Shown piece by piece: positions 4,553 through 38,741 of a stretch of 64,000 nt of DNA. The notes under the pieces are model-generated. The model made no database searches and was not told the DNA's origin. It was given only the letters and a program-made list of their open reading frames with translations. A program made the translations under genes and the position numbers. The DNA is from Pseudonocardia sp. SCN 73-27 (GTDB taxonomy: Bacteria > Actinomycetota > Actinomycetes > Mycobacteriales > Pseudonocardiaceae), in contig MEGH01000023.1 in the NCBI GenBank assembly GCA_001725415.1, positions 35,806 to 99,805 on the forward strand. Direction: 5' to 3'. The number at the start of each line of letters is the position of its first letter. Position 1 is the first letter of the stretch.

Positions 4553-4641
4553 GGGGTCGACCCTATGCCCGACACCGTTTCCGCCGGCGCCCACCCGCCG
4601 CCGCCCCCGCACGAACGACCCCGGCCCTGACGAACGGCAGC

Positions 4642-8027: not shown

Positions 8028-8035
8028 CGCGCCCC

Positions 8036-8824: not shown

Positions 8825-9729
8825 CGGGTCCCCTCCCCCGTGAGCGCGACGAACGCGTCGTCGAGCCGTGGCTGGGTGACGCGCAGCTCCGCGGCGATGA
8901 TCCGCTCGTGCGCGAGTGCGGTGGTGACGGTGGCGAGGACGTCGCCGGTGCCGGTGATCTCGACCCGGCCGTCGCGGTGCGTGACGACGGACCCGACCTC
9001 GGGCAGCGCCCGCAGCATGTCCTCGTCGACCGGCTCGGACGGCCGGAACCGGATCACCTGCGGCGCCCGGGTGCGCTCCACCAGCCCGGACGGGGTGTCG
9101 ATGGCGACGACCCGCCCCGCGTCGATGAGCGCGATCCGGTCGCAGAGCCGCTCGGCCTCCTCCATGAAGTGCGTGACCAGCACGACCGTGACGCCGTCGT
9201 CGCGGATCTGCTCGACCAGCTCCCAGGTGTGCCTGCGCGACTGCGGGTCCAGCCCCGTCGTCAGCTCGTCGAGCACCGCGACCCGGGGCCGGCCGAGCAG
9301 CGCCAGCACGATCGCCAGCCGCTGCTGCTGCCCGCCCGACAGGTTCCCGAACCGGGTGTCGCGCTGCCGCGCCAGGTTCAGCCTGTCGACGAGCGCGTCG
9401 CCGTCGGCGGGGTCGTCGTAGAACGTGGAGTACAGCGAGACGGCCTCCGCGACCGTCATGCGCTCGGGCAGCTTGCTGTCCTGCAGCTGCACGCCGAGCA
9501 CCTGGCGCAGCGCGACCACGTCGTGCTGCGGGTCGAGCCCCAGCACCCGGATCGTGCCGCCGTCGGGGACGCGCAGGCCCTCGACGCACTCGACCGTCGT
9601 CGTCTTGCCGGCCCCGTTCGGGCCCAGCACGCCGAAGATCTCCCCCTCCTGCACCTCGAAGGACACGTCGGCCACGGCGACATGCTCACCGTAGCGCTTC
9701 TGCAGGCCGTTGACCTCGATGACCGTCAT
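8821..9729 (-). CDS. ABC exporter ATP-binding protein
   Basis: A 302-residue ATPase. Walker A is GPNGAGKTT near residue 36-44, the Q-loop is near VQLQD, the signature is LSGGQQQRL, and the D-loop region reads LDELTTGLDP, where the usual Walker B DEPT is DELT. The switch His is in LVTHFMEEAERLCDR. A C-terminal extension of about 80 residues with MLRALPEVGSVV and QPRLDDAFVALTG is the DrrA-type regulatory tail. The ATG at 9729 is chosen because MTVIEVNGLQKRYG is the family start; no good ribosome binding site precedes it. It opens the four-gene exporter and two-component operon. Confidence 0.92.
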   Translation of the reverse strand: MTVIEVNGLQKRYGEHVAVADVSFEVQEGEIFGVLGPNGAGKTTTVECVEGLRVPDGGTIRVLGLDPQHDVVALRQVLGVQLQDSKLPERMTVAEAVSLYSTFYDDPADGDALVDRLNLARQRDTRFGNLSGGQQQRLAIVLALLGRPRVAVLDELTTGLDPQSRRHTWELVEQIRDDGVTVVLVTHFMEEAERLCDRIALIDAGRVVAIDTPSGLVERTRAPQVIRFRPSEPVDEDMLRALPEVGSVVTHRDGRVEITGTGDVLATVTTALAHERIIAAELRVTQPRLDDAFVALTGEGTR

Positions 9730-17726: not shown

Positions 17727-20309
17727 TCACTCGTCGATCTCGTCGTCCGGGCCGGGGCCGCCGCCGCGCATCAGCCAGATGACGTTCTCCAGCTCGTCGG
17801 GCTTGATCAGCACGTCGCGCGCCTTCGAGCCCTCGGACGGGCCGACGACGCCACGCGTCTCCAGCAGGTCCATGAGCCGACCGGCCTTGGCGAAGCCGAC
17901 GCGGAGCTTGCGCTGCAGCATCGACGTCGACCCGAACTGCGACGTCACGATCAGCTCGGTGGCCTGCACGAGCAGCTCGAGGTCGTCGCCGATGTCGGCG
18001 TCGATCTCCTTCTTCTCGCCCGCCTTCTGCGCGGTGACGCCCTCGGTGTAGCTGGGCTCCGCCTGGTCCTTGGTGAACCCGACGACGTCGGCGATCTCCT
18101 CGTCGGACACGTAGGCGCCCTGCATGCGGACCGGCTTGCCCGCACCCATCGGCAGGTACAGCCCGTCGCCCATGCCGATCAGCTTCTCGGCGCCCGGCTG
18201 GTCGAGGATGACCCGGCTGTCGGTCAGCGACGACGTCGCGAACGCCAGCCGCGACGGCACGTTCGTCTTGATCAGGCCGGTGACGACGTCGACCGACGGC
18301 CGCTGCGTCGCCAGCACCAGATGGATGCCTGCAGCACGCGCCTTCTGCGTGATCCGCACGACCGCGTCCTCGACGTCACGCGGCGCCGTCATCATGAGGT
18401 CGGCCAGCTCGTCGACGATGCACAGGATGTACGGGTAGGGCCGGTACTCCCGCTCGGACCCCAGCGGCGCCGTGATCTCGCCGGAGCGGACCTTGCGGTT
18501 GAAGTCGTCGACATGGCGGACCTTGTTGGCCTGCATGTCCTGGTAGCGCTGCTCCATCTCCTCCACCAGCCAGGTCAGCGCCGAGGCCGCCTTCTTGGGC
18601 TGGGTGATGATGGGGGTGATCAGGTGCGGGATGCCCTCGTAGGGCGTCAGCTCGACCATCTTCGGGTCGATGAGGATCATGCGCACCTCCTCGGGCGTGG
18701 CCCGGGAGAGCAGCGAGACGAGCATCGAGTTGACGAAGCTCGACTTGCCGGAACCCGTGGAGCCCGCCACCAGCAGGTGCGGCATCTTCGCCAGGTTCGC
18801 GCAGAGGAAGTGGCCCTCGATGTCCTTGCCGAGGCCGATGACCATGGGGTGCTGCTCGTTGCGCGCGTTGGCCGAGCGCAGCACGTCGCCGAGGCGGACC
18901 ATCTCGCGGTCGGTGTTGGGCACCTCGATGCCGACGGCCGACTTGCCCGGGATGGGCGCCAGCAGTCGCACGTTGTCGGTGGCGACGGCGTAGGCGATGT
19001 TGCGGGTGAGCTGCGTGATCTTCTCGACCTTCACCGCGGGGCCGAGCTCGATCTCGTAGCGGGTGACCGTCGGGCCGCGGGTGAAGCCGGTGACCTGCGC
19101 GTCGACGTTGAACTGGTCGAGCACGCCGGTGATCGCCTCGATCATGGCGTCGTTCGCACTGCTGCGGGTCTTCGGCACCGGGCCGGTGGGCAGCATGTCC
19201 GGTGGCGGGAGCTTGTACTCGGTCTCGCCGATCGGCTCGCGGATCGCCAGCGACATCTGCTCGCCCGTGGGCGGGTTGTCGGGCTCCGACGCGGGCTCGA
19301 TGACGCGGATCGGCTTGCGCGGCACCCGCTTCGGTGGCGCAGGCTCGTCCTCCGCCTCCTGGGACACAGCCTCCCGGGACACAGCCTCCGGTTCCGGCGG
19401 CGCCTCGTCCTCGCGGTAGGCGTCCGCGGCGCTCTGCCGGCGACGAGACGGGCGCCGCAGCCGCGCCGGGGCGGGCTCGTCGTCGCGCTGCTCCTCCTCC
19501 GCGGCGCCGGCCTCGACCTCGTCGGCGTCGTCCTCGGCGTCGTCGACCGGCTTGCCCATCAGACGACGCACCCGGTTGGGCAGCTCGCGCACCGGCGTCC
19601 CGGTGAGGACCAGGAAGCCGTAGCCGGTGAGCAGCACCAGCACCGGGACGGCGACGAACGCGCTCAGCCCGCTGGCCAGCGGCGTCCCCGCCAGGTACCC
19701 GAGCCCGCCACCGGCGCCCGACCACTGGCCCGGCTCCGTCGGCGACCCCGAGAACAGGTGCACCAACCCGAGCACGCCCAGGACCATCAGCAACGTGCCC
19801 ACCGCGACCCGTGGCCGCGACTCCGGGTTGGCCTCCGTGGTCATCAGCACGATGCCGACGACCACCAGCAGCAGCGGCAGCAGCACTCCCGGCGTCCCGA
19901 ACACGGCTCCGACCGCGGCGGAGAACCCGCGCCCGACCGGGCCGCCCGCGCCCCACCAGATCCCGGCCGCCGAGATGACGGCCAGCACGATGAACCCGAC
20001 ACCCAGGCCGTCGCGACGGTGCGCCGGGTCGATCTCGCGGGTCCGCCCGGCCGCCTTGCCGGCCGACCTCCCCAGCTTGACGACGCCACGACCGACCGCG
20101 TCGATGCCCTTGTCGATGAGGTCGGGGCTCTTCTTCGCCGGAGCGGGCTTGCGCGCCGCGGGCCTGCGCGCCGACGAACCGCCACGCGACGAACCGCCGC
20201 GGGACGACGAGCCGCTGCGGGAACGCGAGGAGCCGGAGGATGTACGTCCCGACCCGGCGGCCGCCCGCGTCGTTCCGCGGGCACCACCGGTCGACGCTCC
20301 TCCTGCCAT
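17727..20309 (-). CDS. ftsK: DNA translocase FtsK
   Basis: An 860-residue FtsK/SpoIIIE translocase that pumps chromosome ends through the closing septum. The order is a Ser/Arg/Gly-rich N-terminal tail (about 1-60), four hydrophobic segments at about 95-240 ([32 protein letters not shown] and others), a charged linker rich in Glu, Pro and Ala, the alpha-beta motor with Walker [10 protein letters not shown] and Walker [14 protein letters not shown], and a C-terminal winged-helix gamma domain ([20 protein letters not shown]) that reads KOPS. The ATG at 20309 is favoured; no clear ribosome binding site precedes it. Confidence 0.95.
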
Positions 20310-20443
20310 GTCCGACACGGTAACCGGGCCGGACCCCCGAACCGGGGACCGACGCACCCCCACCCGGTGGCGGACCTTTCGGCCCTCCCATCCCATCTCG
20401 GGCACGCGTACCGTCCGGGCCCCGTCGGACAGGGAGGTAGCAG

Positions 20444-23369: not shown

Positions 23370-23555
23370 TTACGGCAGGGCCCGGAAGATCACGCAGGGC
23401 TCCTCGTAGCGGGCGGCCTCGACCGCCCAGAGGGCCTCGATCTGCTCGGCGCGGGCGGGGTACTCGGCGATCATCACCGCGACCTCCTCCGTCGACGGCT
23501 GCAGGCCGGCGGCGGAGAGCAGGGCGGGGACGACGACCGTGGGATCAGCGCTCAT
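23370..23555 (-). CDS. AtzG/GatC-like small amidase partner
   Basis: A 61-residue helical protein: SADPTVVVPALLSAAGLQPS, EEVAVMIAEYPARAEQIEAL, then ARYEEPCVIFRALP. Size, helical layout and the terminal E-E-P-x-V-I-F-R-A-L-P resemble AtzG and other DUF4089-type small subunits that bind and stabilise amidase-signature enzymes such as AtzE, themselves related to GatC. GAAGGAG lies 7 bases upstream of the ATG. It is the last gene of the operon, 23 bases after the amidase at 23579-24976, its likely partner. Assignment is by pattern; no search was possible. Confidence 0.6.
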   Translation of the reverse strand: MSADPTVVVPALLSAAGLQPSTEEVAVMIAEYPARAEQIEALWAVEAARYEEPCVIFRALP

Positions 23556-23578
23556 GGTGTCTCCTTCGACCAGTGGGG

Positions 23579-24976
23579 TCAGGCCGCGACGGCGTTTCCG
23601 ACCATGGCCGGGACGTGGGTGTGCCAGTCGGTGCGCAGCTGGAACGCGTGCCCGGCGGCGAGGACGGCGGCCTCCTCGAACGGGCGCCCGACGATCTGCA
23701 TGCCCAGCGGCAGGCCCTCGCGGGTGTAGCCCATCGGCACCGACATGGCCGGGTTGCCGGTCGCGTTCCAGTACGGGGTGTGCACGGCCCCGGAGATCTG
23801 CTCGAACGTCAGCTTCTCCAGCGCGGGCGCCCCACCCGCCGACGTCGGCGTCACGATGAGGTCGACCTGGGTGAACAGCTCGGCGACGAGCTTCTGCCCG
23901 ACCCGGCGCACGCGCTGGGCCTGGGCGAAGTCGCCCGCGGTGATCAGTGCGCCGGTGGCGACGGCCATGCGGGTGCCGGAGCCGTAGTCGGCCCAGCGTT
24001 CCCGTAGGTCGGGGCGGTGGTAGGCGTATGCCTCGCCGAGGAAGCCGATCATCGTCGACGACGACAGCTCCTTGTAGAGCGGCAGCTCGACCGGGACGAC
24101 GGTCGCGCCGGCGGCGGTCAGCTCGGCCGTCGCGGCGGCGAGGACCTCCTCCAGCGCGGGGTCGGTCAGGTCGGACGCGGTCAGCAGCGGGTCGACGCCG
24201 ATCCGGACGCCTTCCAGCGACCCCGTCAGCCCGGAGACGTAGTCGTCGACGGGACGGTCGACGGAACAGGCGTCGCGGGCATCGTGACCTGCGAGGACGG
24301 TGAGCATCGCGGCGCAGTCGGCGGCGGTGCGGGCCATCGGGCCGATGTGGTCGTAGCTGTAGCCCAGCGGGACGCAGCCGTACTTGGGCACGCGACCGAA
24401 GGTCTGCTTGAGCCCGGTGATGCCGCAGCTGGTAGCCGGGTAGCGGATACTGCCGCCGGTGTCGGTGCCCAGCCCGCCGAGGAACATGCCTGCGGCGACG
24501 CCGTTGCCGGTGCCGGAGCTGGAGCCGCCCGGGTAGTGGTCGGTGTTCCACGGGTTGCGCGGGACCGGGAACGGCTTCTCGACGTCCGGGATGCCGATGG
24601 CGTACTCCATCGTCGTGAGCTTCCCGGTGACCACCGCGCCCGCGGCGCGCAGCCGGGCGACGACGGGCGCGTCGCCCATGGTCCCCCAGTCGCGGTCGAG
24701 GATGAGGCTCTGCGCGGTGGTCTCGCCCTCGTCGGTGGCGATGATGTCCTTGACGCCCACCGGGATCCCGTGCAGCGGGCCCTTGTCGACGCCCGCGGCG
24801 AGCTCCTCGTCTGCCTTGGCGGCGGCGGCCAGAGCGGTCTCGTCGAAACGCTGGAGGTAGACGCCGAGGGCCTCGTCGTGGGCGTCGGCGAGGGCGTAGC
24901 CGGCCCGGGTGAGCTCGACCGAGGTGGTCTCACCGGACCGCAAGGCGGCCGCGGCGTCGGTGATCGAGAGATACAT
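23579..24976 (-). CDS. Amidase-signature hydrolase 1
   Basis: A 465-residue amidase. The Ser-cisSer-Lys triad is K76 (GVKDII), S152 (GGSSSG) and nucleophile S176 (TDTGGSIR), with the standard 24-residue spacing of the serines. The N-terminus ITDAAAALRSGETTSVELTR is the usual helical start. It cleaves an amide or related C-N bond; the substrate is unknown. The ATG at 24976 has GAGGAG at good spacing. It lacks any fused helical subunit, and a 61-residue AtzG-like gene follows directly. It starts 10 bases after amidase 2. Confidence 0.9.
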   Translation of the reverse strand: MYLSITDAAAALRSGETTSVELTRAGYALADAHDEALGVYLQRFDETALAAAAKADEELAAGVDKGPLHGIPVGVKDIIATDEGETTAQSLILDRDWGTMGDAPVVARLRAAGAVVTGKLTTMEYAIGIPDVEKPFPVPRNPWNTDHYPGGSSSGTGNGVAAGMFLGGLGTDTGGSIRYPATSCGITGLKQTFGRVPKYGCVPLGYSYDHIGPMARTAADCAAMLTVLAGHDARDACSVDRPVDDYVSGLTGSLEGVRIGVDPLLTASDLTDPALEEVLAAATAELTAAGATVVPVELPLYKELSSSTMIGFLGEAYAYHRPDLRERWADYGSGTRMAVATGALITAGDFAQAQRVRRVGQKLVAELFTQVDLIVTPTSAGGAPALEKLTFEQISGAVHTPYWNATGNPAMSVPMGYTREGLPLGMQIVGRPFEEAAVLAAGHAFQLRTDWHTHVPAMVGNAVAA

Positions 24977-24986
24977 CTGCTTCTCC

Positions 24987-26423
24987 TCAGTGAACGGCGC
25001 CGAGGACCGGCGGCCGGCGCAGGTGGTGGTCGGTTGCGGCCTGGTAGGCGGTGCCGAGGGCGAAGAGCGTCGCCTCGTCACGCGGGTGTCCGACGAGTTG
25101 CATGCTCACCGGCAGCCCGTCGACCAGGCCGGACGGCAGCACCAGGGCGGGGCTGCCGGTGAGGTTGAACGGGACGGTGGTGCGGCACGCGGCCTCCAGC
25201 CACGGCACCTCACGACCGCCGAGGTCGGACGTCATCGACGGCGCGATCAGCGGCGGCAGCGACGTCATCGCCGGGGTGACGAGCGCGTCGCAGCCCGCCA
25301 TGGCGTCCTCGAGCTCGCGCATGAACAGCGGCCGCAGCCGCAGCGCCCGCAGGTAGTCGGCGGCGCTGACGAAGGGCGCGGCGCCGAGCAGGGAGGCGCC
25401 CATCTCGTCGCGGTCCTCGATGAGGTCGGCGTGCTCCTCGTGCAGCGAGAGCATCTCCGCGTAGATGATCCACCAGCTCGCGACGGCGGCGAGGTCGAAC
25501 GTCGGCAGCTCGACGTCGACGATCTCGACGCCGGTGGCGGCCAGTTCGGCGAGCGCGGTCTCGTGCGCGGCCGCGACGGCAGGGTGCATCTCCTGCTCGA
25601 GGAACCCGCGCGGCCTCGCGACCCGCATGCCGGTGACGTCGCGGCCGATCGCGGCGGCGAACGGGGTGTCCTCCAGTGGGATCGACGTCGGGTCGCGCGG
25701 ATCGGGCCCGGCGATGACGTCGAGCATCAGTGCGCAGTCGGCGACGCTTCGCGCCATCGGCCCGGCGTGGTCCATCGTCCACGACAGGCCCATGACGCCG
25801 TGTCGCGGAACGCGGCCGTGGGTGGCCTTGATCCCGGTCAGCCCGCAGAACGACGCCGGGATGCGGATGGAGCCGCCGGTGTCGGTGCCGATCGCGAGCG
25901 GCACCTGGCCGAGCGCCAGTGCTGCCCCGGACCCGGACGACGACCCACCCGTCGTGCGGGTCGGGTCCCACGGGTTGCGGGTGGGCCCGAAGGTGCGGTT
26001 GACCGCGCCGCCGCAGGCGAACTCGAACGTCGAGAGCTTGGCGACCAGGACGCCGCCGGCCTCGTGGAGCCGGGCGGCGAGCGCGGCGTCCTCGGTGGGG
26101 ACGAAGTCGCGGTAGAGCGACGAGCCGCCGGTCGTCGTGATGCCCGCGGTGGCGACGATGTCCTTGAGCCCGAACGGGACGCCCTCCAGCGGGCGGGCGG
26201 TGCCGGCGGCCCAGCGGGCGTCGGACTCCGCTGCCGCGGCGCGCGCCTGGTCGGCGAGCAGGAGCAGGACGGCGTTGTGCGCGTCGTCGGTGGCGGCGAT
26301 CCGGGCCAGGCAGGCGTCGACGGCCTGGCTCGGTGTGGCCTCGCCGGCGGCGAAGGCAGCCAACAACTCCGTGGCGGTCAGGTCGGCCAGATCCGTCGAT
26401 TTCCGAGACAGGACGCCGGTCAC
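24987..26423 (-). CDS. Amidase-signature hydrolase 2
   Basis: A 478-residue amidase with triad K87 (GLKDIV), S161 (GGSSSG) and S185 (TDTGGSIR). LTATELLAAFAAGEATPSQAVD starts the enzyme and PLEGVPFGLKD the catalytic core. GTG start overlaps the stop of the MFS gene (GTGA), so its translation depends on that of the transporter, whose C-terminal tail resembles an amidase small subunit. About 35% longer segments than amidase 1 around residues 250-340 suggest a different substrate pocket, a judgement by eye. It belongs to the same operon. Confidence 0.9.
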   Translation of the reverse strand: MTGVLSRKSTDLADLTATELLAAFAAGEATPSQAVDACLARIAATDDAHNAVLLLLADQARAAAAESDARWAAGTARPLEGVPFGLKDIVATAGITTTGGSSLYRDFVPTEDAALAARLHEAGGVLVAKLSTFEFACGGAVNRTFGPTRNPWDPTRTTGGSSSGSGAALALGQVPLAIGTDTGGSIRIPASFCGLTGIKATHGRVPRHGVMGLSWTMDHAGPMARSVADCALMLDVIAGPDPRDPTSIPLEDTPFAAAIGRDVTGMRVARPRGFLEQEMHPAVAAAHETALAELAATGVEIVDVELPTFDLAAVASWWIIYAEMLSLHEEHADLIEDRDEMGASLLGAAPFVSAADYLRALRLRPLFMRELEDAMAGCDALVTPAMTSLPPLIAPSMTSDLGGREVPWLEAACRTTVPFNLTGSPALVLPSGLVDGLPVSMQLVGHPRDEATLFALGTAYQAATDHHLRRPPVLGAVH

Positions 26424-27802
26424 GACCGGCCCCCGTTCGCGATCCACGCCGACGCCGTCGCCGGTTCTGTCACGGGTTCGGTGTAGGGCAACGGCAGGGC
26501 GCGCAACCGCATCAGGTCCGGGTGGTAGCCGGTGTAGGTGGCGTGGGCCTGGGCGATCCGGTCGGGCGCCAGGGTGATGTCCTGGGCCGCCGCGATCGCG
26601 GCGAACCCGTCGAGGTCAGGCAGGGGCACGACTACCTCCGATACGAGGACCGGCCGGCGGGTCTCGCCGACCGTGAACAACAGGACGAGAGCGACCACGA
26701 GCAGACCTGTGGTCCCCCACAGGGCGCCGTGCAGGCCGCCGACGGCGATGCCGACGCCCGCGAGCAGGCCGCCGGCGAGCATCCCGACGTCGCTCGCGAT
26801 GCGGTACGCGGCGAGCCCGGCCTCGGGGTCGGGCGCGAGGTCGACCGTCATCGCCGCGGGGATGACCCACGTGGCGCCGACGACGACTCCCGCCGCGAGG
26901 GCGCCGAGCCCGAACCCGACGGGCCCGGCGACGGCGGTGAGCGCGACCGTTGCGAGCAGTCCCCAGGCCAGGGCGAGCGCGAGGGGCACGAAGCGGCCGC
27001 GGCGGTCGGTGAAGCGGGCGCCGTAGTGCATGACGGCGACGTCGGTGATCGCGAGGGCGAACAGCGCCACGCCCAGCGGCACCCACGCCATCCCGAGCTC
27101 CTCGCCGAGCAGCGGGATGATCGTCATCGCCAGCCCGGACCGCAGGGCCTGGCCGATCCCGGACAGCACGAGCGACGCCCAGGCCCGGGCCCCGCGCACC
27201 CCCAGTCCGCGGGGCAGGCCCAGCCGTGGCCGCGCCGCCGAGCGCAGCCGGGGCGCGAACACCCAGGCGGCGAGGGCGCCGAGCAGGTTGACCGCGGCAC
27301 ACACCCCGAAGAGCAGGCGCAGCCCGTCGACACCCGGCCGTAGGGCGACGACGAGCCCGCCGCCGAGCGGGCCCGTCGCGATCCCCGCGAACCAGGCGGC
27401 GTTGAACGAGCCGATGGCACCGCCTCGCTGGTGGGCGCGGGCCAGCCGGACCGCCGCCTGGACACCGCCGCCCATGAACAGCGCGCCGCCGAACCCCTGC
27501 AGCACCCGGGCCAGGCCGACGACGACCCAGTCCGTCGTGACCGCCGAGAGCAGCGACCCGATCCCGAACACGAGCATCGAGACCGTCAGCGCGATCCGGG
27601 AGTCGAGCCGGGGCACGTACCGGGTGCCGAGGAAGTCGACGAGCAGCAGCGACAGCCCCATCGAGGCGACGACGTACGCCGCCCACTCGGGCCGGGCGCC
27701 GAGCCCGACGACCAGCAGTGCCGTGAAGGGCGCGGTGAGCCCGAACCCGATCCCGGCGACGACGACGAGCGCGTGGAAGGTGCGCCGCGGGCTCGCGGTC
27801 AC
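26420..27802 (-). CDS. MFS transporter with C-terminal GatC/AtzG-like tail
   Basis: A 460-residue protein. Residues 1 to about 385 are a twelve-segment major facilitator: FHALVVVAGIGFGLTAPFTAL, the loop DFLGTRYVPRLDSR, GLARVLQGFGGALFMGGG, then the second half from GIGQALRSGLAMTIIP. The last about 67 residues (394-460) are soluble: DLDGFAAIAAAQDITLAPDR, HPDLMRLRALPL, PYTEPVTEPATASAWI. MFS proteins normally end soon after segment 12. The tail resembles the small helical subunits that accompany amidases, with its EPV-x-EPA ending. It is joined on both sides by GTGA overlaps to amidases 3 and 2. Whether it imports substrate or exports product is unknown. Confidence 0.82.
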   Translation of the reverse strand: MTASPRRTFHALVVVAGIGFGLTAPFTALLVVGLGARPEWAAYVVASMGLSLLLVDFLGTRYVPRLDSRIALTVSMLVFGIGSLLSAVTTDWVVVGLARVLQGFGGALFMGGGVQAAVRLARAHQRGGAIGSFNAAWFAGIATGPLGGGLVVALRPGVDGLRLLFGVCAAVNLLGALAAWVFAPRLRSAARPRLGLPRGLGVRGARAWASLVLSGIGQALRSGLAMTIIPLLGEELGMAWVPLGVALFALAITDVAVMHYGARFTDRRGRFVPLALALAWGLLATVALTAVAGPVGFGLGALAAGVVVGATWVIPAAMTVDLAPDPEAGLAAYRIASDVGMLAGGLLAGVGIAVGGLHGALWGTTGLLVVALVLLFTVGETRRPVLVSEVVVPLPDLDGFAAIAAAQDITLAPDRIAQAHATYTGYHPDLMRLRALPLPYTEPVTEPATASAWIANGGRS

Positions 27803-29382
27803 GCCTGCGCGACAGCAGCAGGCGAGCCGGTGCCCGGCATCACTCCGACCGCCGCCTCGACGACCGCCCCCGCGCGGAAGGTGCGTGCGTCCTCCCAGTG
27901 CGGCGCGACGATCTGGATCGACGCCGGCATCCCCGTCGCCGGGTCGACGCCGCTGGGAACGGCCAGCGACGGGTGCCCCGACAGGTTGGTGACGCACGTG
28001 TTGGCGACCATGGTCGTGCCCCGCGACAGGATCTCCGGGTCCTCGGCCGGGCGGTCGAGCAGCACCGGCGCGACCTGCGGCGTCGTCGGCGTGACGAGCA
28101 GGTCGCACGTCTGCAGGGCGACGTCGATCTCCGCGGTGAGCGCGCGGCGGAGGTTGGCGGCCTTGGCGAAGTACGTCGAGAAGTAGCTGTCGTGCAGGTA
28201 GCGGCCCGCGAGCAGCCACACCTTGAAGAACGGCGGGAACGAGTCGGCCTCGAGCCGGCGCACCATCGCGAACGCATGCGTGCGCTCGACGTCGACCTCG
28301 CCGAGGTGGGAGTAGCCGGCGCCGTCGGCCTGCACCCCCATCCAGCCGAGGTGGATCAGCATCGCGGTCTCGATCGCCCACGCGTCGGCCCACAGCGGGA
28401 TCGACACCGGGACGACGGTCGCGCCCGCGTCCTCCAGCGCCGAACAGGAGTCGCGGAACGCGGCGAGCACGCCGGGTTCGCACAGATCCTCGCCGGTGCC
28501 CTCGGCGACGACACCGATCGTCATGCCGGCGACGCCGTCACCCAACACTTCCGCCGCGCGGGTCGGTGAAGGAGTGCCCCGGACCCACTGCGGGTCCCGG
28601 TCGGAGTGGCCGCTCATCACGTCGAGCATCCGCGCGGTCAGCTCGACCGTGGACCCGATGGGGCACACCGAGTCGATGGTGTGGTCCATGTAGGTCAGAC
28701 CGTGGCTCGGGACGAGCCCCTGGGTGCCCTTGATCGAGACGACACCGTTGAACGCCGCCGGGATCCGCGCCGAGCCGCCCTCGTCGACACCGATCGCGAG
28801 GTCGACGGCACCGGAGCGGACCGCCGATCCCGACCCGCCCGACGATCCTCCCGACGACCGCGACGGATCGACGGCGTTGCGGGCCGGGCCGAACCAGGAC
28901 GACTCCCCCGTGCCCGACGTCGAGAAGTCGTCGAGGTTGGTCTTGCCCGTGATGGACGCGCCCGCGTCGAGCAGCCGGGACACGACGACCGCGTCGGTCG
29001 TCGGGGTGTAGCTCAGGCTGCGCGACGCGTTGGTGATCGGGATGCCCGCGACGGCCAGGTTGTCCTTGACGCCCACCGTCATCCCGGCGAGCGGGCCCTC
29101 GGCGGAACCGGTGATGCGGCAGCGCCGGACGAATGCGTGGAAGGGGTCGTCGGCGTGCGACGGCGGGGCGCCCGGGTCGCGGTCGGTGTGGGTCAGCGGC
29201 GGCATCGGGGCGTGCAGCTCGTCGAGCCGGTCCATCCCGGCGAGGATGCCGTCGAGGACGTCGGCGTACTGCTCCGACTCGCGCGGGGTGAGGTGCATGA
29301 ACTCGGCGGCGCCGAGCTCGGCGACCTGCTCCGGTGTGGGACGGCGGACGAAGCCACGGATCCTGTTGCGCGGCATGGCCAT
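27799..29382 (-). CDS. Amidase-signature hydrolase 3 with N-terminal helical domain
   Basis: A 527-residue amidase with triad K106 (GVKDNL), S180 (GGSSGGS) and S204 (VDEGGSAR); the nucleophile motif reads DEGGS as in nitrile-hydratase-linked Rhodococcus amidases. Residues about 14-60 (TPEQVAELGAAEFMHLTPRE, YADVLDGILAGMDRLDEL) form an added helical domain placed like the N-terminal domain of those enzymes and like a fused GatC. AGGAGG lies at ideal spacing before the ATG at 29382, the best ribosome binding site of the operon. It follows the binding-protein gene across a perfect family B palindrome. Substrate unknown. Confidence 0.88.
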   Translation of the reverse strand: MAMPRNRIRGFVRRPTPEQVAELGAAEFMHLTPRESEQYADVLDGILAGMDRLDELHAPMPPLTHTDRDPGAPPSHADDPFHAFVRRCRITGSAEGPLAGMTVGVKDNLAVAGIPITNASRSLSYTPTTDAVVVSRLLDAGASITGKTNLDDFSTSGTGESSWFGPARNAVDPSRSSGGSSGGSGSAVRSGAVDLAIGVDEGGSARIPAAFNGVVSIKGTQGLVPSHGLTYMDHTIDSVCPIGSTVELTARMLDVMSGHSDRDPQWVRGTPSPTRAAEVLGDGVAGMTIGVVAEGTGEDLCEPGVLAAFRDSCSALEDAGATVVPVSIPLWADAWAIETAMLIHLGWMGVQADGAGYSHLGEVDVERTHAFAMVRRLEADSFPPFFKVWLLAGRYLHDSYFSTYFAKAANLRRALTAEIDVALQTCDLLVTPTTPQVAPVLLDRPAEDPEILSRGTTMVANTCVTNLSGHPSLAVPSGVDPATGMPASIQIVAPHWEDARTFRAGAVVEAAVGVMPGTGSPAAVAQA

Positions 29383-29422
29383 GAGGAACCTCCTGGGTGG
29401 GAACGGGAGTGGAAGGGCCCTC

Positions 29423-29462
29423 GTGAGTGGCAATGGTCGCTATAGCGACCATTGCCACTCAC
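29423..29462. repeat. Family B palindrome, copy 3 (perfect 40 bp)
   Basis: GTGAGTGGCAATGGTCGCTA followed by its exact reverse complement. It lies inside the amidase operon, 20 bases after the binding-protein stop and 40 bases before the amidase 3 start on the transcribed strand. There it could protect the upstream message and reduce reading into the amidase genes. Confidence 0.9.
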
Positions 29463-29482
29463 AGGGCGGGCCCGGGCCGAGC

Positions 29483-31108
29483 TCAGCCCGAGTCGGAGAC
29501 CGAGATCGTCGTGAGGTCGGCGAACCACGACTGCGGCTGCACGAAGCCCTGGACGTTCGACGACAGGACGCGCGGGTTCTTGTCGTTCACGACGACCAGC
29601 CACGGCGAGTCCTTGCCCAGCACCTGCGCGACCTGGGCGTAGACGTCGGAACGTTCCTTGTCGTCGAGCACCGTGCGCGCCTTGGCCAGCAGGGCGTCGA
29701 CCTCGGGGCTGGAGTACTTGCCCGCGTTGGCCGAGGACTGCGAGCCGAACCAGCTCGTCCAGAAGCCTTCCTGCTGGAACGACAGCGAGATGTTCATGGC
29801 GTCGGCGTCGTCGGGGATGTTGCCGACGAAGAAGTCGTTCAGCATCGCCGCCCACTCGATGGGCTTGAGCTCGACCTTCACCCCGATCGCGGCCAGGTCG
29901 GCCTGCAGCGCGGTGTTCATCGGGGTCGGGACCATGTTCCCGGACCCGCTCGTCGGGTAGGACAGCGTCATCGTGAAGCCGTCGGGGTAGCCGGCCTCGG
30001 CGAGCATCTGCTTGGCCTTGGCCGGATCGTAGCCGTAGACCTCGCTCTCCGGGCGGAAGGACGCGTCGGCCTTCGGGGTGTAGCCGAGCGCGGGCTCGGC
30101 GGTGCCCTTGAGGATGTTGTCCACCAGCGACTGCCGGTTGATCGCCCAGTTCAGCGCCTCACGGACCTTGACGTTGTCGAACGGGGCCTTGCGCATGTTG
30201 TAGACCCACGGCCAGATGTGGTTGTAGGAGTTCGTCAGCACCTGGAAGCCCTGGCTCTCGAGGCTGGGTACGTCGTCCGGCGGCGGGACCTCGATCCAGT
30301 TGACCTCGCCGGAGCGCAGCGCCGCGGTGCGGGCAGTGGGGTCCGGGATGGGGCGCAGGATGACCTTGTCGAGCTTCGGCGCGCCGTTCCAGTAGGTCTC
30401 GTTCCTGGTCATGACCAGGCGCTGGCCACGTTCGAGGGACTCGAACTTGAACGGCCCCGTCCCGACGGGCTTCTCCGCGAACCCCTGGTTGCCCTCGGCC
30501 TGGATCGCGGTGGGGCTGCCGAAGTACACGGTCGCGAGGTCGACGGGCAGGTACGACCACGGCCCGTTGGTGTTGATGACGATGGTCATGTCGTCGACCT
30601 TGGAGAAGTTCTTGATCCCCGCGATCGAGAGTCCGCCCTGGGCGTTGAGCTCCTGGTAGAACTGCGGGCTCGACTTGTCCGCGTAGCGGCCCAGGTTGAA
30701 GATGGCCGCGTCGGCATTCCACGGGGTGCCGTCGTGGAAGGTGACGCCGGGGCGGAGCTTGAACGTCCAGCTCGTCAGGTCGGCGTTGGGCGTCCACGAC
30801 TCGGCGAGGTCCGGCTCGATCGTCGGGATCTTCGAACCGTCGGTCAGGTCGAACTTCGTGAGGCCGTCGAAGAGCTGGTTGGCGACGAACCGCAGCCCCT
30901 CGTAGCCCTGACCCTGCGCGAGCCCGGTGTCGAGGACGGGGATGTCGCTCGCCGTCATGCCGATGACCAGAGTGTTCGCTCCCGCGCCCCCACCCGACGT
31001 GGCGCTGCCGCCGCACGCCGTGAGGACCAGGGTCAGGGCCGTCAGCAGGGCCGTGGCCGCGGTGGACAGCAGCCGTCGTCTGCGGCGGGGTGGACTGGTA
31101 CTGGACAC
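29483..31108 (-). CDS. ABC transporter substrate-binding lipoprotein, family 5 (oligopeptide/nickel type)
   Basis: A 541-residue extracytoplasmic binding protein. The N-terminus RRRRRLLSTAATALLTALTLVLTACGG has a twin-arginine-rich start, a hydrophobic core and the lipobox LTAC. The family 5 pattern is clear: ESWTPNADLTSWTFKLRPGVTFHDGTPWNADAAIFN in pieces, VKVREALNWAINRQSLV, YGYDPAKAKQMLAEAGYPDG. GTG at 31108 with GAGAGGAA seven bases upstream is preferred over the ATG at 31135, which has none. It should deliver a peptide-sized ligand to the permeases upstream. The ligand is not deducible from sequence. Confidence 0.92.
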   Translation of the reverse strand: MSSTSPPRRRRRLLSTAATALLTALTLVLTACGGSATSGGGAGANTLVIGMTASDIPVLDTGLAQGQGYEGLRFVANQLFDGLTKFDLTDGSKIPTIEPDLAESWTPNADLTSWTFKLRPGVTFHDGTPWNADAAIFNLGRYADKSSPQFYQELNAQGGLSIAGIKNFSKVDDMTIVINTNGPWSYLPVDLATVYFGSPTAIQAEGNQGFAEKPVGTGPFKFESLERGQRLVMTRNETYWNGAPKLDKVILRPIPDPTARTAALRSGEVNWIEVPPPDDVPSLESQGFQVLTNSYNHIWPWVYNMRKAPFDNVKVREALNWAINRQSLVDNILKGTAEPALGYTPKADASFRPESEVYGYDPAKAKQMLAEAGYPDGFTMTLSYPTSGSGNMVPTPMNTALQADLAAIGVKVELKPIEWAAMLNDFFVGNIPDDADAMNISLSFQQEGFWTSWFGSQSSANAGKYSSPEVDALLAKARTVLDDKERSDVYAQVAQVLGKDSPWLVVVNDKNPRVLSSNVQGFVQPQSWFADLTTISVSDSG

Positions 31109-31175
31109 AGGGGTTCCTCTCGGGGCAGGGGTCATCGCCCGGCGGCGCCGCTGCCGTCGGAAAGAAGGGGTGAGC

Positions 31176-32114
31176 TCAGCCCGTGGTGGCGGGTGTCTTC
31201 ACGTGCACGCACGCCGCGGCGTGTGCGGGCGCCACCGGGATGAGCGCGGGCCACTCGCCCGCGCAGACGTCCTCGGCGACCGGACAGCGGGTCCGGAACC
31301 CGCATCCCGACGGCGGGTCGGCCGGGCTGGGCAGCTCGCCGTGCAGGACGATCCGCTCGCGGCCCTGGCCGGGCGTCGCCGAGAGCAGCGCCGTCGTGTA
31401 CGGGTGCTGCGGGGCGTCCCACAGCCGTTCCGCCGACGCCACCTCCACGACCCGGCCCAGATACATGACGGCGACGCGGTCGGAGATGTGCTCGACGACG
31501 GCCAGGTCGTGGGAGATGAACAGGAACGCGACGCCGGTCTCGTGCTGCAGGTCGGCGAGCAGGTTGAGCACCTGCGCCTGGACACTCTTGTCCAGCGCCG
31601 ACACCGCCTCGTCGCACACCACGAGGTCCGGCGACGTCGACAGCGCCCGCGCGATCGCGACGCGCTGCAGCTGGCCGCCGGAGAGCTCGTGCGGGAAGCG
31701 TTCGCTCTGCGCGGCGGTGAGGCCGACCCGGTCGAGCAGCGCCAGCACCCTCGGTCCGCGTTCGGCGCGGGCGACGCCGTGCGCGCGCAGGTTGAACTCG
31801 ATCGAGCTGCGGACGGTGAGCCGCGGGTTGAGCGAGGTCTGCGGGTTCTGCGGGACGACCTGCAGCCGGGCCCGCAGCGCGCGCAGCTGCGTACGGTTCA
31901 TCGCGGGGATCGACTCGCCGTCGAACGTGACGTCGCCGGAGTCGGGCGCGAGCAGCCCGAGCAGGATCTTGCCGGTCGTCGACTTGCCGCAGCCCGACTC
32001 CCCGACGACGCCGAGCGTCTCGCCGCGGTTCACGGTGAGCGAGACGTCGGCGACCGCGCGGACGCCGTTGCCGAACGTCTTGTTCAGGCCGGTGGCCTCC
32101 AGCAGCGCGCTCAT
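31176..32114 (-). CDS. Oligopeptide-type ABC transporter ATPase (DppF/OppF-like)
   Basis: A 312-residue ATPase: Walker A GESGCGKST, Q-loop VVPQNPQTSLNPRL, signature LSGGQLQR, Walker B LVVCDEAVSALD, switch His in FISHDLAVVEHI. The C-terminal oligopeptide/dipeptide domain has four cysteines (GCGFRTRCPVAEDVC and AAACVHV), as in the Dpp/Opp ATPases that carry an iron-sulfur cluster. The ATG overlaps the stop of the partner ATPase (ATGA). It energises the family 5 importer. Distance to the binding-protein gene is 67 bases. Confidence 0.93.
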   Translation of the reverse strand: MSALLEATGLNKTFGNGVRAVADVSLTVNRGETLGVVGESGCGKSTTGKILLGLLAPDSGDVTFDGESIPAMNRTQLRALRARLQVVPQNPQTSLNPRLTVRSSIEFNLRAHGVARAERGPRVLALLDRVGLTAAQSERFPHELSGGQLQRVAIARALSTSPDLVVCDEAVSALDKSVQAQVLNLLADLQHETGVAFLFISHDLAVVEHISDRVAVMYLGRVVEVASAERLWDAPQHPYTTALLSATPGQGRERIVLHGELPSPADPPSGCGFRTRCPVAEDVCAGEWPALIPVAPAHAAACVHVKTPATTG

Positions 32115-33109
32115 GCGGCCCGCTCCCCCACCGTCGTGTTGACGACGGGGCACGCCGCCGACCGGTCCGGCGCGACGTCGACCAGCGGCGGGTCCTGCTC
32201 GTGGCACGACGGCCGCGCCTGCGGGCACCGCGGCGCGAACGCGCAACCGGCCGGGAAGGCCCCGACCGGTGGGGGGGCCCCGACGATCGAGCGCAGGTGC
32301 CCGCGCTCGACGCCCGGCGTGGGCAGCGCGGCCAGCAGGCCCGCGGTGTAGGGGTGCTTCGGGTCGCCCAGCACCTGCGCGGCCGGCCCCTCCTCGACGA
32401 GCTTGCCCGCGTACATGACGCCGATCCGGCCGCCGAAGTCGCGGGCGACGCCGACGTCGTGGGTGACCATCAGGACCGCAGTGCCCGACCGCTGCTGCAG
32501 CTCGACGATCAGCTCCAGGATCTGGGCCTGCACCGTGACGTCGAGTGCGGTGGTGGGCTCGTCGGCGATGAGCACCTGCGGGTCGCAGCTGACCGCGATC
32601 GCGATGACCGCGCGCTGACGCATGCCGCCCGAGAGCTGGTGGGGGTAGCTGTCGGCGACGCGCTTCGGGTCGGGGATGCCGACCATCGCCAGCAGCTCCT
32701 CCGCCCGGCGCCGCGCGGCCGGCTTCGTCGTCTCGACACCGTGCACGTTGAGCACCTCGACGAGCTGCGCACCGATGCGCCGCAACGGGTCCAGCGCACC
32801 CGTCGGGTCCTGCGGGATGAGCGCGACCTGGCCGCCGCGCAGGCTGCGCAGCTCCGAGCCGGACATCCCGAGCAGCTCCATGCCGTTCATCGTGACGCTG
32901 CCGCCGAGCTTCGCCGACGCCCCGTAGAGCTGCATGATCGACCGGGCGGTGACCGACTTCCCGCTGCCCGACTCCCCCAGCAGCATCATCGTCTCGCCAC
33001 GGCGCAGCGTGAACGAGACGCCGCGGACGACGTCGACGCTGCGGTGCCGGGACACGAACGTCGTGGTCAGGCTGGTGACCTGGAGAGGGGCTACCGACGA
33101 GGTGCTCAC
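32111..33109 (-). CDS. Oligopeptide-type ABC transporter ATPase (DppD/OppD-like)
   Basis: A 332-residue ATPase: Walker A GESGSGKS, Q-loop LIPQDPTGALDPL, signature LSGGMRQR, Walker B VLIADEPTTALD, switch His VTHDVGVARDFGG. The C-terminal domain again has the cysteine set (GCAFAPRCPQARPSC and AACPVV). GTG start overlaps the permease stop by four bases. It is the first of two ATPases in the operon and pairs with the DppF-like one to drive the two permeases. Confidence 0.93.
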   Translation of the reverse strand: MSTSSVAPLQVTSLTTTFVSRHRSVDVVRGVSFTLRRGETMMLLGESGSGKSVTARSIMQLYGASAKLGGSVTMNGMELLGMSGSELRSLRGGQVALIPQDPTGALDPLRRIGAQLVEVLNVHGVETTKPAARRRAEELLAMVGIPDPKRVADSYPHQLSGGMRQRAVIAIAVSCDPQVLIADEPTTALDVTVQAQILELIVELQQRSGTAVLMVTHDVGVARDFGGRIGVMYAGKLVEEGPAAQVLGDPKHPYTAGLLAALPTPGVERGHLRSIVGAPPPVGAFPAGCAFAPRCPQARPSCHEQDPPLVDVAPDRSAACPVVNTTVGERAA

Positions 33110-33999
33110 GCCCGGGCCTCCGATCGGACGTCGAGCAGGTCGCGCAGGCCGTCGCCGAGGACGTTGAACGCCACCGACGCGACCAGGATCGCGATCGCGG
33201 GGATCGCCGCCAGGAACGGCGCCGTGTAGATGTACTGCGTGTGGTCGCTGACCATGAGCCCCCACTCGGCCGTCGGCGGCGAGACGCCCAGGCCCAGGAA
33301 GCTCAGGCCCGCGGCGTAGACGATCGACAGCCCGATCAGCGCGGTGCAGTAGACGACGACCGGCGGCGCGACGTTGGGCAGCACCTGCCGCGTCGCGATC
33401 GCCAGCCGCGACGCCCCGCTTGCCCGGGCCGCGTCCATGTAGTCGAGGTCGGCCAGCCGGCGGGTCTCGGTCTCTGCGACGCGGGCGACCGGCGGCACCA
33501 GGATCACCGCCAGCGCGATGATCGAGTTGGAGATGCCCGACCCCAGCGCCGCGGCGATCGCGATCGCCAGCAGCACCGCGGGGAAGGCGTAGAAGACGTC
33601 GAGCGTCCGCATGATCGAGCGGTGCCCCCACTTGCCCGCGAGGCCCGCCGTCACCCCCAGCGCGGTGCCGACGACCGCGGCGAACAACACCGGGACCAGG
33701 CCTGCGAGCAGCGAGAGCCGGGTGCCGTCGACGATGCGGGCGAACACGTCGCGGCCCTGGCCGTCGGTCCCCAGGATGTGCCCGGCGGTCCCGACGGGCA
33801 GCAGCCGCCGCGCCGCGTCGCCCGCGTTCGGGTCGCCGACGAGGAACGGCCCGACGATCGCGACCAGCACGATCAGGCCGACGACGCCGGCGGCGATCCG
33901 GGCGGACACGGTCATCCGGCGCCTGCGCCGCGTGGTGGTGGTCGGGGGCGCCGCGCTCTCCGGGAGAGCGCTCGTGGTGGCGTCGATGGTGGCGGTCAC
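33106..33999 (-). CDS. Oligopeptide-type ABC permease (DppC-like)
   Basis: A 297-residue permease. A disordered Thr/Arg-rich N-terminus is followed by the first membrane segment (VVGLIVLVAIVGPFLV), the loop HILGTDGQGRDVFARIVDGTR that is a hallmark of DppC/OppC, and five further segments. The EAA-type loop is around DYMDAARASGASRLAIATRQVLPN, which docks on the ATPases. GTG start. It lies 25 bases after the DppB-like gene and overlaps the DppD-like gene by four bases. Confidence 0.92.
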   Translation of the reverse strand: MTATIDATTSALPESAAPPTTTTRRRRRMTVSARIAAGVVGLIVLVAIVGPFLVGDPNAGDAARRLLPVGTAGHILGTDGQGRDVFARIVDGTRLSLLAGLVPVLFAAVVGTALGVTAGLAGKWGHRSIMRTLDVFYAFPAVLLAIAIAAALGSGISNSIIALAVILVPPVARVAETETRRLADLDYMDAARASGASRLAIATRQVLPNVAPPVVVYCTALIGLSIVYAAGLSFLGLGVSPPTAEWGLMVSDHTQYIYTAPFLAAIPAIAILVASVAFNVLGDGLRDLLDVRSEARA

Positions 34000-34024
34000 G
34001 GGGGACTCCTCGACTCGGGCGGGA

Positions 34025-34969
34025 TCAGGCGCGGATTCGGGGGTCGACCAGCCCGTGCAGGGCGTCGACGACCAGGTTGAGCATCACGAAGGCCAGCGCC
34101 GAGACGAGGACACCCGCCTGGATCACCGGCAAGTCGCGCTGAGTGATCGACTGGTAGACCAGCAGGCCGATCCCCGGCCAGGCGAAGACCGCCTCGACGA
34201 AGATGACGCCACCGAGCAGGTAGCCGATCTGCAGGCCCGCGACCGTCAGCAGCGACGGCACGGTGTTGTGGAAGGCGTGGAGCATGACGCGGCGGTGCGA
34301 CAGTCCCCGCGCGGTCAGCGCCTCCACGAAATCCATGCTCATCACGTCGAGCACCGACGAGCGGAACATCCGCGCGATGATCCCCGCGGGAACCAGCGCG
34401 GCTGTGACCGCCGGCAGGATCAGATGGTTGAACAGGTCGACGAAGCCGCCCCCACCGTTCGCGGCGTACATGCCGCTCACCGGGAACAACCCCGCCCCGG
34501 CGGCCAGATAGATGATCAGCAGCAGACCGATCGAGTACTGCGGCACCGAGATCGAGAACAACGCCAACGCATTGCCCAGCCGGGCCAGGACGCCGGTGCG
34601 GCGCAGCGCGGTCAGCGCACCTACCGCGACGCCCAGCACGATCGCGATGACCGCGGCGGCGGCGCTGAGGATCAGGGTGTTCGCGAGCGCGTCCAGCACC
34701 ATCGGGGCGACGTCGCTGCGGCGCGCGATCGACGTCCCCAGGTCGCCGGTGAGCGTGTGGCCCAGCCACTTCACGTACTGCACCGGCCACGGGTCGTTCA
34801 GGCCGAGCCGCTCGGTGAGGGCCGCGCGGGCCTCGGGCGAGCCCGTCGGCCCCAGCAGGGACGCGACCGGGTCACCTGGGATGATCTTGATGGTGATGAA
34901 GATGACGATCGAGACCCCGAACAGGATCGGGATCGCCATCAGCAGCCGCTTGCCGACGTAGCTCGCCAT
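34025..34969 (-). CDS. Oligopeptide-type ABC permease (DppB-like)
   Basis: A 314-residue permease. It starts YVGKRLLMAIPILFGVSIVIF with the next block IKIIPGDPVASLLG, and has RLGLNDPWPVQYVKWLGHTLTGDLG, both standard for DppB/OppB. The EAA loop is near DFVEALTARGLSHRRVMLHAFHN. About six membrane segments. Its ATG overlaps the stop of the GntR regulator (ATGA), so the regulator gene is the first gene of this operon rather than a separate unit. Confidence 0.93.
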   Translation of the reverse strand: MASYVGKRLLMAIPILFGVSIVIFITIKIIPGDPVASLLGPTGSPEARAALTERLGLNDPWPVQYVKWLGHTLTGDLGTSIARRSDVAPMVLDALANTLILSAAAAVIAIVLGVAVGALTALRRTGVLARLGNALALFSISVPQYSIGLLLIIYLAAGAGLFPVSGMYAANGGGGFVDLFNHLILPAVTAALVPAGIIARMFRSSVLDVMSMDFVEALTARGLSHRRVMLHAFHNTVPSLLTVAGLQIGYLLGGVIFVEAVFAWPGIGLLVYQSITQRDLPVIQAGVLVSALAFVMLNLVVDALHGLVDPRIRA

Positions 34970-35781
34970 CAGTGCTCACCCGCCCGGTCGTCGATCGGGG
35001 CGGCGAAGGGCACCGTCCGGTGTGCCGGGCCGCCGCGGCCGAACGCCCGCAGCATCCCGTGGCGCGGCAGCTGCGCCATCAACGTCAACCGGTCGCCACG
35101 GACGCGGGAGATCGCGTACTCCAGCGGGCGTCCGTAGCTGTCGCGCAGCATCCGCTCGAACAGCATCAGCGGCGCACCCGGCGCGACGTCGAGCAGCTCG
35201 GCCACCAGCTCATCGGCGAGGATCGCCTCGACGGCCTGGTCGGCCACCCCGAACTCGAAGCCCGCCATCTCGTACAGCGCGTACCACTCGTCGACGGTCC
35301 GGGCGCGCTCCACCACCGCGAGCAGCTCCGTCGGCACGTACGCCGTCGCGCAGTAGTACGGCTCGTCGCCCAGCACCGTCAGGTACTCGACGACGCCGAC
35401 CTGCCCGCCGCGCTCGATGCCCAGCCGCTCCGCCACCCGCGGCGCCGCGACCTCGCAGCTCGCCGACAGGATGCGGTGCGACACGCGCTCCCGCTCGGGC
35501 TCCGGGCCGTGCAGGTGCGTGAAGCTGTGCCGCACCTTCGACGCCACCGCGAACGTCCCCGTGCCCTGGACGCGCTTGACGAGGCCCTCGTCGCGCAGCA
35601 TCGCCAGCGCATCGCGGACGACCTGCCGGCTCGCGGAGAACGACAGCATCAGCTCGGTCTCGCCCGGTAGCGCGCCGGCCGGGAACTCCTCGTGGACGAT
35701 CGCCGCCCGGAGCAGATCCCGGACACGACGCGCGGCACTCGAGCGGCGAACCGTTCGGGGGTGCATCCTCGCCTCGGTCAT
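34969..35781 (-). CDS. GntR-family regulator with UTRA effector domain (HutC type)
   Basis: A 270-residue regulator. The winged helix is RRVRDLLRAAIVHEEFPAGALPGETELMLSFSASRQVVRDAL in overlapping pieces, followed by MLRDEGLVKRVQGTGTF. The C-terminal UTRA domain (about 95-245) ends with LFERMLRDSYGRPLEYAISRVRGDRLTL, the typical ligand-pocket strand set. Such regulators release DNA when they bind the substrate or a metabolite of the operon. It leads the ten-gene amide operon and is coupled to the first permease by ATGA. ATG at 35781 or 35766 is possible; neither has a ribosome binding site. Inverted repeats upstream are candidate operators. Confidence 0.88.
   Translation of the reverse strand: MTEARMHPRTVRRSSAARRVRDLLRAAIVHEEFPAGALPGETELMLSFSASRQVVRDALAMLRDEGLVKRVQGTGTFAVASKVRHSFTHLHGPEPERERVSHRILSASCEVAAPRVAERLGIERGGQVGVVEYLTVLGDEPYYCATAYVPTELLAVVERARTVDEWYALYEMAGFEFGVADQAVEAILADELVAELLDVAPGAPLMLFERMLRDSYGRPLEYAISRVRGDRLTLMAQLPRHGMLRAFGRGGPAHRTVPFAAPIDDRAGEH

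Positions 35782-35961: not shown

Positions 35962-38741
<2,780 letters not shown>

Follow-up and report, generated by a model that had tools for sequence, protein, structure and literature searches.

What is encoded by the eleven genes that occupy positions 35781 down to 23370, all on the minus strand, of a 64,000-nucleotide stretch of Pseudonocardia sp. SCN 73-27 DNA (GCA_001725415.1, contig MEGH01000023.1, positions 35,806-99,805; "the window" below means this whole stretch), and how are its three amidases built? A preliminary description of the locus took the major facilitator superfamily (MFS) transporter and a 61-residue protein of this block to be separate, unrelated parts. Our analysis suggests instead that both are tied to small amidase partners. 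With a probability of roughly 0.6, we read the locus as an organic-nitrogen scavenging operon with partner-dependent amidases resembling AtzE-AtzG, in which one partner is nested within the MFS gene, giving that gene two products. The parts of this reading drawn from sequence are the gene set, its conservation, the nested start signals, the kept reading frame and the kinship of the partners by profile comparison. A catabolic operon is of a known kind; for the nested dual-product MFS/subunit gene, our literature search found no description.

Each of the three amidases seems to have a small partner of the GatC/AtzG class: a separate gene for amidase 1, the MFS tail for amidase 2 and an N-terminal fusion for amidase 3. 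The genes concerned are as follows.

27799..29382, minus strand: amidase 3 (ami3), with a fused N-terminal GatC-like domain (about residues 31-67); Pfam Amidase, 2.5e-85
26420..27802, minus strand: MFS transporter, long form of 460 residues; Pfam MFS_1, 3.3e-22; the partner module of amidase 2 makes up its final 69 codons
26420..26629, minus strand: predicted free 69-residue small subunit, from a nested GTG start at 26629 preceded by GGAGGTAGTC
24987..26423, minus strand: amidase 2 (ami2); Pfam Amidase, 8.9e-111
23579..24976, minus strand: amidase 1 (ami1); Pfam Amidase, 1.1e-93
23370..23555, minus strand: 61-residue AtzG-like small subunit, predicted partner of amidase 1; profile evidence, without a Pfam match

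The nested start, the GatC-like N terminus of amidase 3 and the AtzG-like character of the 61-residue protein had all been overlooked, as had a palindrome at 29423-29462. The MFS tail was recognised as a partner module because of standalone genes, and not through our first AtzG profile, which missed it. The C-terminal 69 or so residues of the transporter form a separate gene of 66-74 residues in G127, Frankiales RYN_135, Modestobacter, Paractinoplanes and two Acidimicrobiia metagenome-assembled genomes (MAGs) (loci L095, L133-L136 and L139). Amidase 2 immediately follows the module in all 19 genomes of the module alignment (A3), whose loci were mostly fetched by amidase 2; the MFS gene may be fused to the module, separate or not adjoining. 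No MFS gene adjoins the module in L133, L135, L136 and L139; L136 has another MFS gene further downstream.

The module continues the MFS reading frame in eight genomes. A nested start, ATG in three and GTG in five, stands at one aligned position in all eight, with GGAGR upstream. Every one of these nested starts is preceded, at proper spacing, by a Shine-Dalgarno (SD) match of 5 nt or more. Over the 400 codons upstream, such a match precedes 2 of 195 other in-frame ATG or GTG codons and 49 of 3136 codons when all codons are counted. All six standalone module genes also carry such an SD. The test does miss ordinary starts: six of the eleven annotated starts of the block reach 5 nt (perm1, perm2, atp1, ami3, ami1 and the 61-residue gene) and five fall below it. 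The SD and start are thus conserved at one position across species (8/8), although the eight fused genomes are related and do not represent eight independent events.

The predicted free form of the module has 69 residues in seven of the fused genomes and 70 in Pseudofrankia, and the standalone module genes of L095, L135 and L139 also encode 69 residues. In all eight fused genomes the module stop overlaps the amidase-2 start as ATGA or GTGA (GTGA in the window). The starts of the MFS gene and of amidase 2 each overlap the preceding stop, and the SD test found no SD of their own for either in the window; the nested SD is therefore the natural entry for both the module and amidase 2. On these signals, we predict that amidase 2 is translationally coupled to the nested small subunit.

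The frame between transporter and module is also kept. The linkers, measured from a conserved V(G/R)ET to the nested start, span 11, 12, 14, 18, 18, 30, 49 and 89 codons and are always in frame, with no in-frame stop and four and one stops in the other two frames. Over 209 linker codons the GC content by codon position is 0.80, 0.66 and 0.84, consistent with coding. Several linkers are proline-rich, and their sequence is not conserved. In the five genomes where MFS and module are neighbours but separate, the MFS gene either stops short of the module or runs into its start in a different frame.

In a tree of amidase 2, the seven usable fused genomes fall in one supported group that also holds the unfused G127, implying two gains of the fusion, or one gain and one loss; the eighth fused genome, L140, was left out for its frame changes. 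Two other candidate fusions were dropped: in L131 the MFS gene is in another frame and ends first, and in L132 no MFS gene was found adjoining the module. A Chloroflexota MAG (L138, positions 7533-9185) was kept apart from the eight, since its 69-residue module lies in frame behind an amidohydrolase (PF01979) and not an MFS gene; with AGGAG before a candidate start, it may be another instance of this nesting with a separate origin.

We next consider the other two partners. A family profile built from four seeds of the 61-residue protein gave 13 further open reading frames (ORFs) in the loci fetched (16 were listed, three of them seeds). These adjoin amidase-1-type genes, and the 61-residue protein itself stands beside an amidase-signature gene as an AtzG-like protein should; both placements are partly built in, as the loci were fetched via amidase 1. 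The family was compared with a set of true AtzG (12 members of PF13318, all above cut-off, from other genomes), using 60 column permutations as the null for this and each other profile comparison. The two align over 52 columns with an hhalign score of 27.2 and a probability of 78 (null maximum 17.7). A genus-wide search with PF13318 itself was discarded as chance: 45 of 62 genomes matched at E<=10, none above cut-off, and 9 of 14 control genomes matched too.

The N terminus of amidase 3 falls short of the GatC family (PF02686), with 18.1 bits against a cut-off of 23. It is nonetheless the second GatC match of the window genome (E 0.0196). Among 15 genomes searched, all 15 have a true GatC above cut-off and five have a second match at E<=0.5; four of these five are the N terminus of amidase 3 (window genome, 0.0196; CB1190, 0.0279; Nocardia, 0.0474; Kineococcus, 0.381), and the fifth, in G373 (E 0.281), was not placed by coordinates. 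As a family, these N termini match GatC with a probability of 92 and a score of 39.5 (null maximum 17.7). The MFS module scores 23.1 against the 61-residue family (null maximum 16.2) and 21.4 against the amidase-3 N terminus (null maximum 18.2). By profile, kinship to the GatC/AtzG class thus appears strong for amidase 3 and the 61-residue protein and weak for the module, and we infer a common GatC-class origin of all three.

Support for the pairing also comes from a wider set of 80 amidase-2-type loci. In 49 of these an ORF ending no more than 1.2 kb upstream matches the module, the 61-residue family, AtzG or GatC at E<0.05; 17 of the 49 are from genomes behind the module profile and the 32 others span several phyla. 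Such an ORF lies downstream only in three loci. Short GatC/AtzG-like ORFs upstream of amidase-2-type genes were seen in many phyla (L142-L204). The small proteins were assigned to no family by Pfam or NCBIfam, and subunits of this kind may be under-annotated, as neither of the two families put through Pfam was recognised.

The amidases themselves appear to be intact enzymes. All three belong to the amidase signature family (PF01425), with 287.6, 371.5 and 315.1 bits for a cut-off of 27. The Lys, GGSS and DxGGS motifs, which we take to be those of amidase signature enzymes, are complete at Lys76/GGSS150/Ser176, Lys87/159/Ser185 and Lys106/178/Ser204, in agreement with the full Lys, cis-Ser, Ser triad reported in the preliminary description. 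Pairwise identity among the three is merely 30-37%. None reaches the AtzE models TIGR02715 and PRK09201 (cut-offs 425.75 and 461): amidase 1 scores 250.2 and 264.6, amidase 2 276.3 and 285.6, and amidase 3 166.7 and 166. Taken with their partners, the three look like GatCA/AtzEG-like modules rather than bare enzymes.

These features suggest the following scheme, in which partner binding, translation of both forms, docking, direction of the MFS transporter, regulation and substrate are inferred. A GntR/UTRA repressor would sense a pathway compound, and a family-5 ATP-binding cassette (ABC) importer would bring in amides. Three amidase-signature enzymes, each a GatCA/AtzEG-like module with a small helical partner, would split these amides, the ammonia being kept. 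Amidase 1 would pair with the 61-residue protein and amidase 2 with the 69-residue module, while amidase 3 would carry its partner at its N terminus. From the nested SD and start, and with the module stop overlapping the amidase-2 start, the free partner and amidase 2 would be made together. As no stop separates MFS and module, a second product would be an MFS transporter whose cytoplasmic tail is the partner; amidase 2 would be docked to the transporter by this tail. The transporter most likely exports the released acid, since the block holds no further catabolic enzyme; the sequence of amide import, hydrolysis, ammonia retention and acid export as a whole is proposed from the family roles and this lack of further catabolic genes. 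That one gene gives two proteins by design, with the ratio of long to free form setting how much amidase 2 is docked at the membrane or free, as a tunable assembly, is an idea that we advance tentatively, at a little under even odds.

Two observations in relatives give hints to the substrate: Frankiales RYN_161 has a carbon-nitrogen hydrolase after the solute-binding protein (SBP), and in L138 the pair of module and amidase 2 follows the amidohydrolase.

Several results weigh against our reading. None of the 17 members of the 61-residue family and none of the 19 module members matches the AtzG-like (PF13318) or GatC family of Pfam at E<=10, and profile searches of the PDB with the 61-residue family and the module returned chance-level matches only (best E 0.074 and 0.4). 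The module is barely above the null against AtzG (18.6, null maximum 16.3) and within the null against GatC, where one of 60 permutations scored as high. The 61-residue family and the amidase-3 N terminus are not linked by this test either (4/60). The test likewise fails for true AtzG against GatC (15/60), and it leaves AtzG and the amidase-3 N terminus unlinked (19/60). At E<=0.5, amidase 3 of G127, G147, L125 and L136 gave no second GatC match. A small partner-like ORF is absent from 28 of the 80 amidase-2-type loci, and of the 26 loci mapped (the nearest relatives of amidase 2 and a few distant ones) 20 have the module and six more distant ones lack it (L141, L142, L150, L181, L189 and L203). 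Most loci were retrieved by searching with amidase 1 or amidase 2, so that any module or AtzG gene lying elsewhere would have escaped notice.

Other adverse points concern the fusion. It is restricted to related genomes, and the overlap of the G127 genes in different frames indicates that it is not essential. In L140, a Pseudonocardia MAG, frame changes within 1796-4738 split both the MFS gene and amidase 2, possibly through assembly errors. No report of either protein form, the long MFS/module protein or the free module, was found in the literature, and the MFS transporter could be an importer instead of an exporter.

How much of this calls for a docked enzyme at all? The MFS stop may have been lost by drift in one group, leaving a harmless tail with no docking, so that only the free 69-residue subunit matters. 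The full conservation of the nested SD and start, the relatives in which the module is unfused or has no adjoining MFS gene, and the unconserved linker sequence all fit such a history. We nevertheless consider it rather unlikely, as the frame has stayed open across seven linker lengths in eight genomes, with no in-frame stop compared with five in the other two frames, and the linkers have the codon-position GC of coding sequence and are in several cases proline-rich. At the other extreme, the tail could be a regulatory domain of the transporter with no relation to the amidase: in the window it shares the MFS frame, Pfam names no domain in it and its kinship to AtzG is weak. A separate module gene directly before amidase 2 with no adjoining MFS (L133, L135, L136 and L139), together with the GatC/AtzG-like ORFs upstream of many amidase-2-type enzymes in other phyla, makes this very improbable.

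A further alternative, that of the preliminary description, concerns the substrate: an ordinary peptide or opine uptake operon to which amidases acting on several bonds of one compound were added. The SBP and permease 2 do score best against glutathione, nickel and dipeptide importers, and the low mutual identity of the three amidases (30-37%) fits this view. These importer scores, however, lie far below the curated cut-offs, and relatives with the same kind of importer have from one amidase (L137 and L197) to at least 14 (G147), where twelve tandem amidase-1 copies accompany amidases 2 and 3. Such variation in amidase number with the importer type unchanged is easier to reconcile with a range of amides than with a single molecule, and we regard the uptake-operon view as doubtful. 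A compound with several different amide or C-N bonds, as originally proposed, is but one possibility.

The G147 array is a remarkable local expansion in its own right. In this MAG (Frankiales RYN_135, JAOPUZ010000042.1; G147:C6 about 171531-190643, loci L096/L121/L122), twelve tandem amidase-1-type genes share 50-79% mutual identity and all have the Lys, GGSS and DxGGS motifs. Lying behind an importer of the same kind, the array further includes amidase 2, a pair of AtzG-like genes and an amidase 3 truncated where the contig ends.

Comparison with known systems places the scavenging operon and its partners among several precedents. The closest is AtzE-AtzG, a 1-carboxybiuret hydrolase and its small subunit, which likewise combines an amidase-signature gene with an adjoining short GatC-like partner. 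According to PMC6219798, AtzG is an obligate non-catalytic partner of AtzE, which is insoluble without it, and proteobacterial atzG-atzE-atzH clusters are found together with ABC transporters and additional amidases, another shared trait. The insolubility of AtzE makes partner function here a sound analogy, not a demonstration. Unlike that system, amidases 1 and 2 score below the AtzE cut-off of TIGR02715, the small proteins have no PF13318 match, one partner is nested in an MFS gene, and AtzH (DUF3225) is absent among the Pfam matches of the block's eleven proteins. The GatCA core of the transamidosome also has a GatA-type amidase with a small subunit, to which the N terminus of amidase 3 is similar, but the GatB family is absent among the block's Pfam matches and the GatC above cut-off is encoded elsewhere (G000:C8). 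The best PDB match of amidase 3, over residues 38-519 (E 1.1e-77), is the "Amidase" 3a1i/3a1k, presumably a Rhodococcus enzyme with an N-terminal helical domain; amidase 3 differs from it in sitting within a three-amidase transport block. Amidase 3 is also below the cut-off of the subfamily model PRK07235 (412.9 of 545).

For the nesting itself, two partial parallels were found. LplT-Aas joins an MFS transporter to the cytoplasmic enzyme that uses its cargo, as separate genes in many bacteria and as one ORF in some; PMC11416262 describes these fusions as uncharacterised, and an engineered fusion harmed LplT expression. There the whole enzyme is fused, whereas here it is the enzyme's small partner alone, with a nested start. 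Cas11b, a small subunit of a larger complex, is translated from an in-frame start inside cas8b (PMC11899642) and so shares with our case a small subunit from an internal start in a larger gene, but the proteins are unrelated and a transporter plays no part there.

If our reading is right, GatC/AtzG-type partners, often invisible to current family models, may be common companions of amidase-signature enzymes, and one of them may have been incorporated into a transporter gene without losing its own ribosome-binding site. Were both products made, the gene would offer a simple natural means of holding some of a soluble enzyme at a transporter. Amidases of this type may also need an overlooked partner of 60-70 residues for solubility, as described for AtzE in PMC6219798.

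The rest of the block and its flanks are listed here; the gene order is gntR, perm1, perm2, atp1, atp2, SBP, ami3, MFS, ami2, ami1 and the 61-residue gene.

35962-37743: flanking gene called rnj in the preliminary description, kept in 59 of 62 genomes of the genus
34969..35781, minus strand: GntR/UTRA (HutC-like) regulator; Pfam UTRA 6.7e-24, GntR 1.5e-13
34025..34969, minus strand: ABC importer permease 1 (perm1); BPD_transp_1 1.4e-34
33106..33999, minus strand: ABC importer permease 2 (perm2); BPD_transp_1 1.5e-25
32111..33109, minus strand: ABC ATPase 1 (atp1); ABC_tran and oligo_HPY; GTGA overlap with perm2
31176..32114, minus strand: ABC ATPase 2 (atp2); ABC_tran and oligo_HPY; ATGA overlap with ATPase 1
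29483..31135, minus strand: family-5 solute-binding lipoprotein (SBP); SBP_bac_5 1.3e-91; alternative start at 31108
29423-29462: perfect palindrome of 40 bp, between SBP and amidase 3
17727-20405: flanking FtsK gene

Pfam bears out every family that had been named from the sequence (UTRA with GntR, two BPD_transp_1, two ABC_tran with oligo_HPY, SBP_bac_5, three Amidase and MFS_1), as well as the common strand. The MFS gene clearly belongs to its superfamily (MFS_1, 79.3 bits, cut-off 33.4), and the regulator falls short of the histidine utilisation repressor HutC (TIGR02018, 80.7 bits, cut-off 220). Two counts needed correction: the listing described as ten genes holds eleven, and in place of six 4-base overlaps the start and stop coordinates give four (perm2/atp1, atp1/atp2, ami3/MFS and MFS/ami2) and one of a single base (gntR/perm1).

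Within the genus, 6 of 62 genomes contain a match to the SBP at E<=1e-80; across 298 genomes of the order, amidase 1 has matches in 23 (E<=1e-100) and amidase 2 in five (E<=1e-110), the window genome being included in each count. The MFS gene was also sought in plasmids, where no match was found. A near-identical block is whole in the window genome and in the laboratory strain Pseudonocardia dioxanivorans CB1190 (G017), whose SBP is 91% identical, with rnj adjoining in both, although in CB1190 the DNA left of the block is unlike that of the window; in G081 it is visible from rnj to SBP, where the contig ends. The two genomes with the closest rnj, G023 (98%) and G077 (95%), have DNA matching window positions 20.9-23.3 kb and then rnj, without the block between, and in G033 the ftsK stretch lies about 400 bases from rnj. 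The empty site between matching flanks in G023 and G077 suggests that the block was gained or lost here as a whole.

All eleven genes occur in the same order in three Amycolatopsis, in Nocardia sp. alder85J and in CB1190. Partial or rearranged copies are found in Pseudofrankia, Kineococcus, a Modestobacter MAG, Paractinoplanes, Frankiales MAGs and Acidimicrobiia MAGs. The pairs L021/L129, L096/L133 and L123/L197 each denote a single genome, which entered the counts one time. The set thus recurs across genera beyond chance, with its order kept in the nearest copies and rearranged in others. Together with the empty rnj site, these whole copies support the earlier view of a single catabolic unit, and the locus looks like one that behaves as a block. 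The earlier statement that no described pathway has this gene set also stands, in that our literature search found neither such a pathway nor any report on this block. More distant clusters with similar parts were seen in G035 (ABC, AtzG, amidase, AtzG, amidase, MFS, GntR) and in G348 and G092.

The palindrome between the SBP and amidase-3 genes appears to be an intergenic hairpin of a dispersed kind. Its core has 100 forward and 98 reverse matches genome-wide at up to two mismatches, compared with 1 and 0 for a control pattern, and as a genome-wide repeat it was ruled out as a specific GntR operator. Its position means that a single transcript for the block is not assured, and it may form a hairpin for processing or attenuation. 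No hairpin was seen in this gap in the three Amycolatopsis and the Nocardia copies. CB1190 has a hairpin of 42 bp at the same place, and G127 has one there with 18-bp arms.

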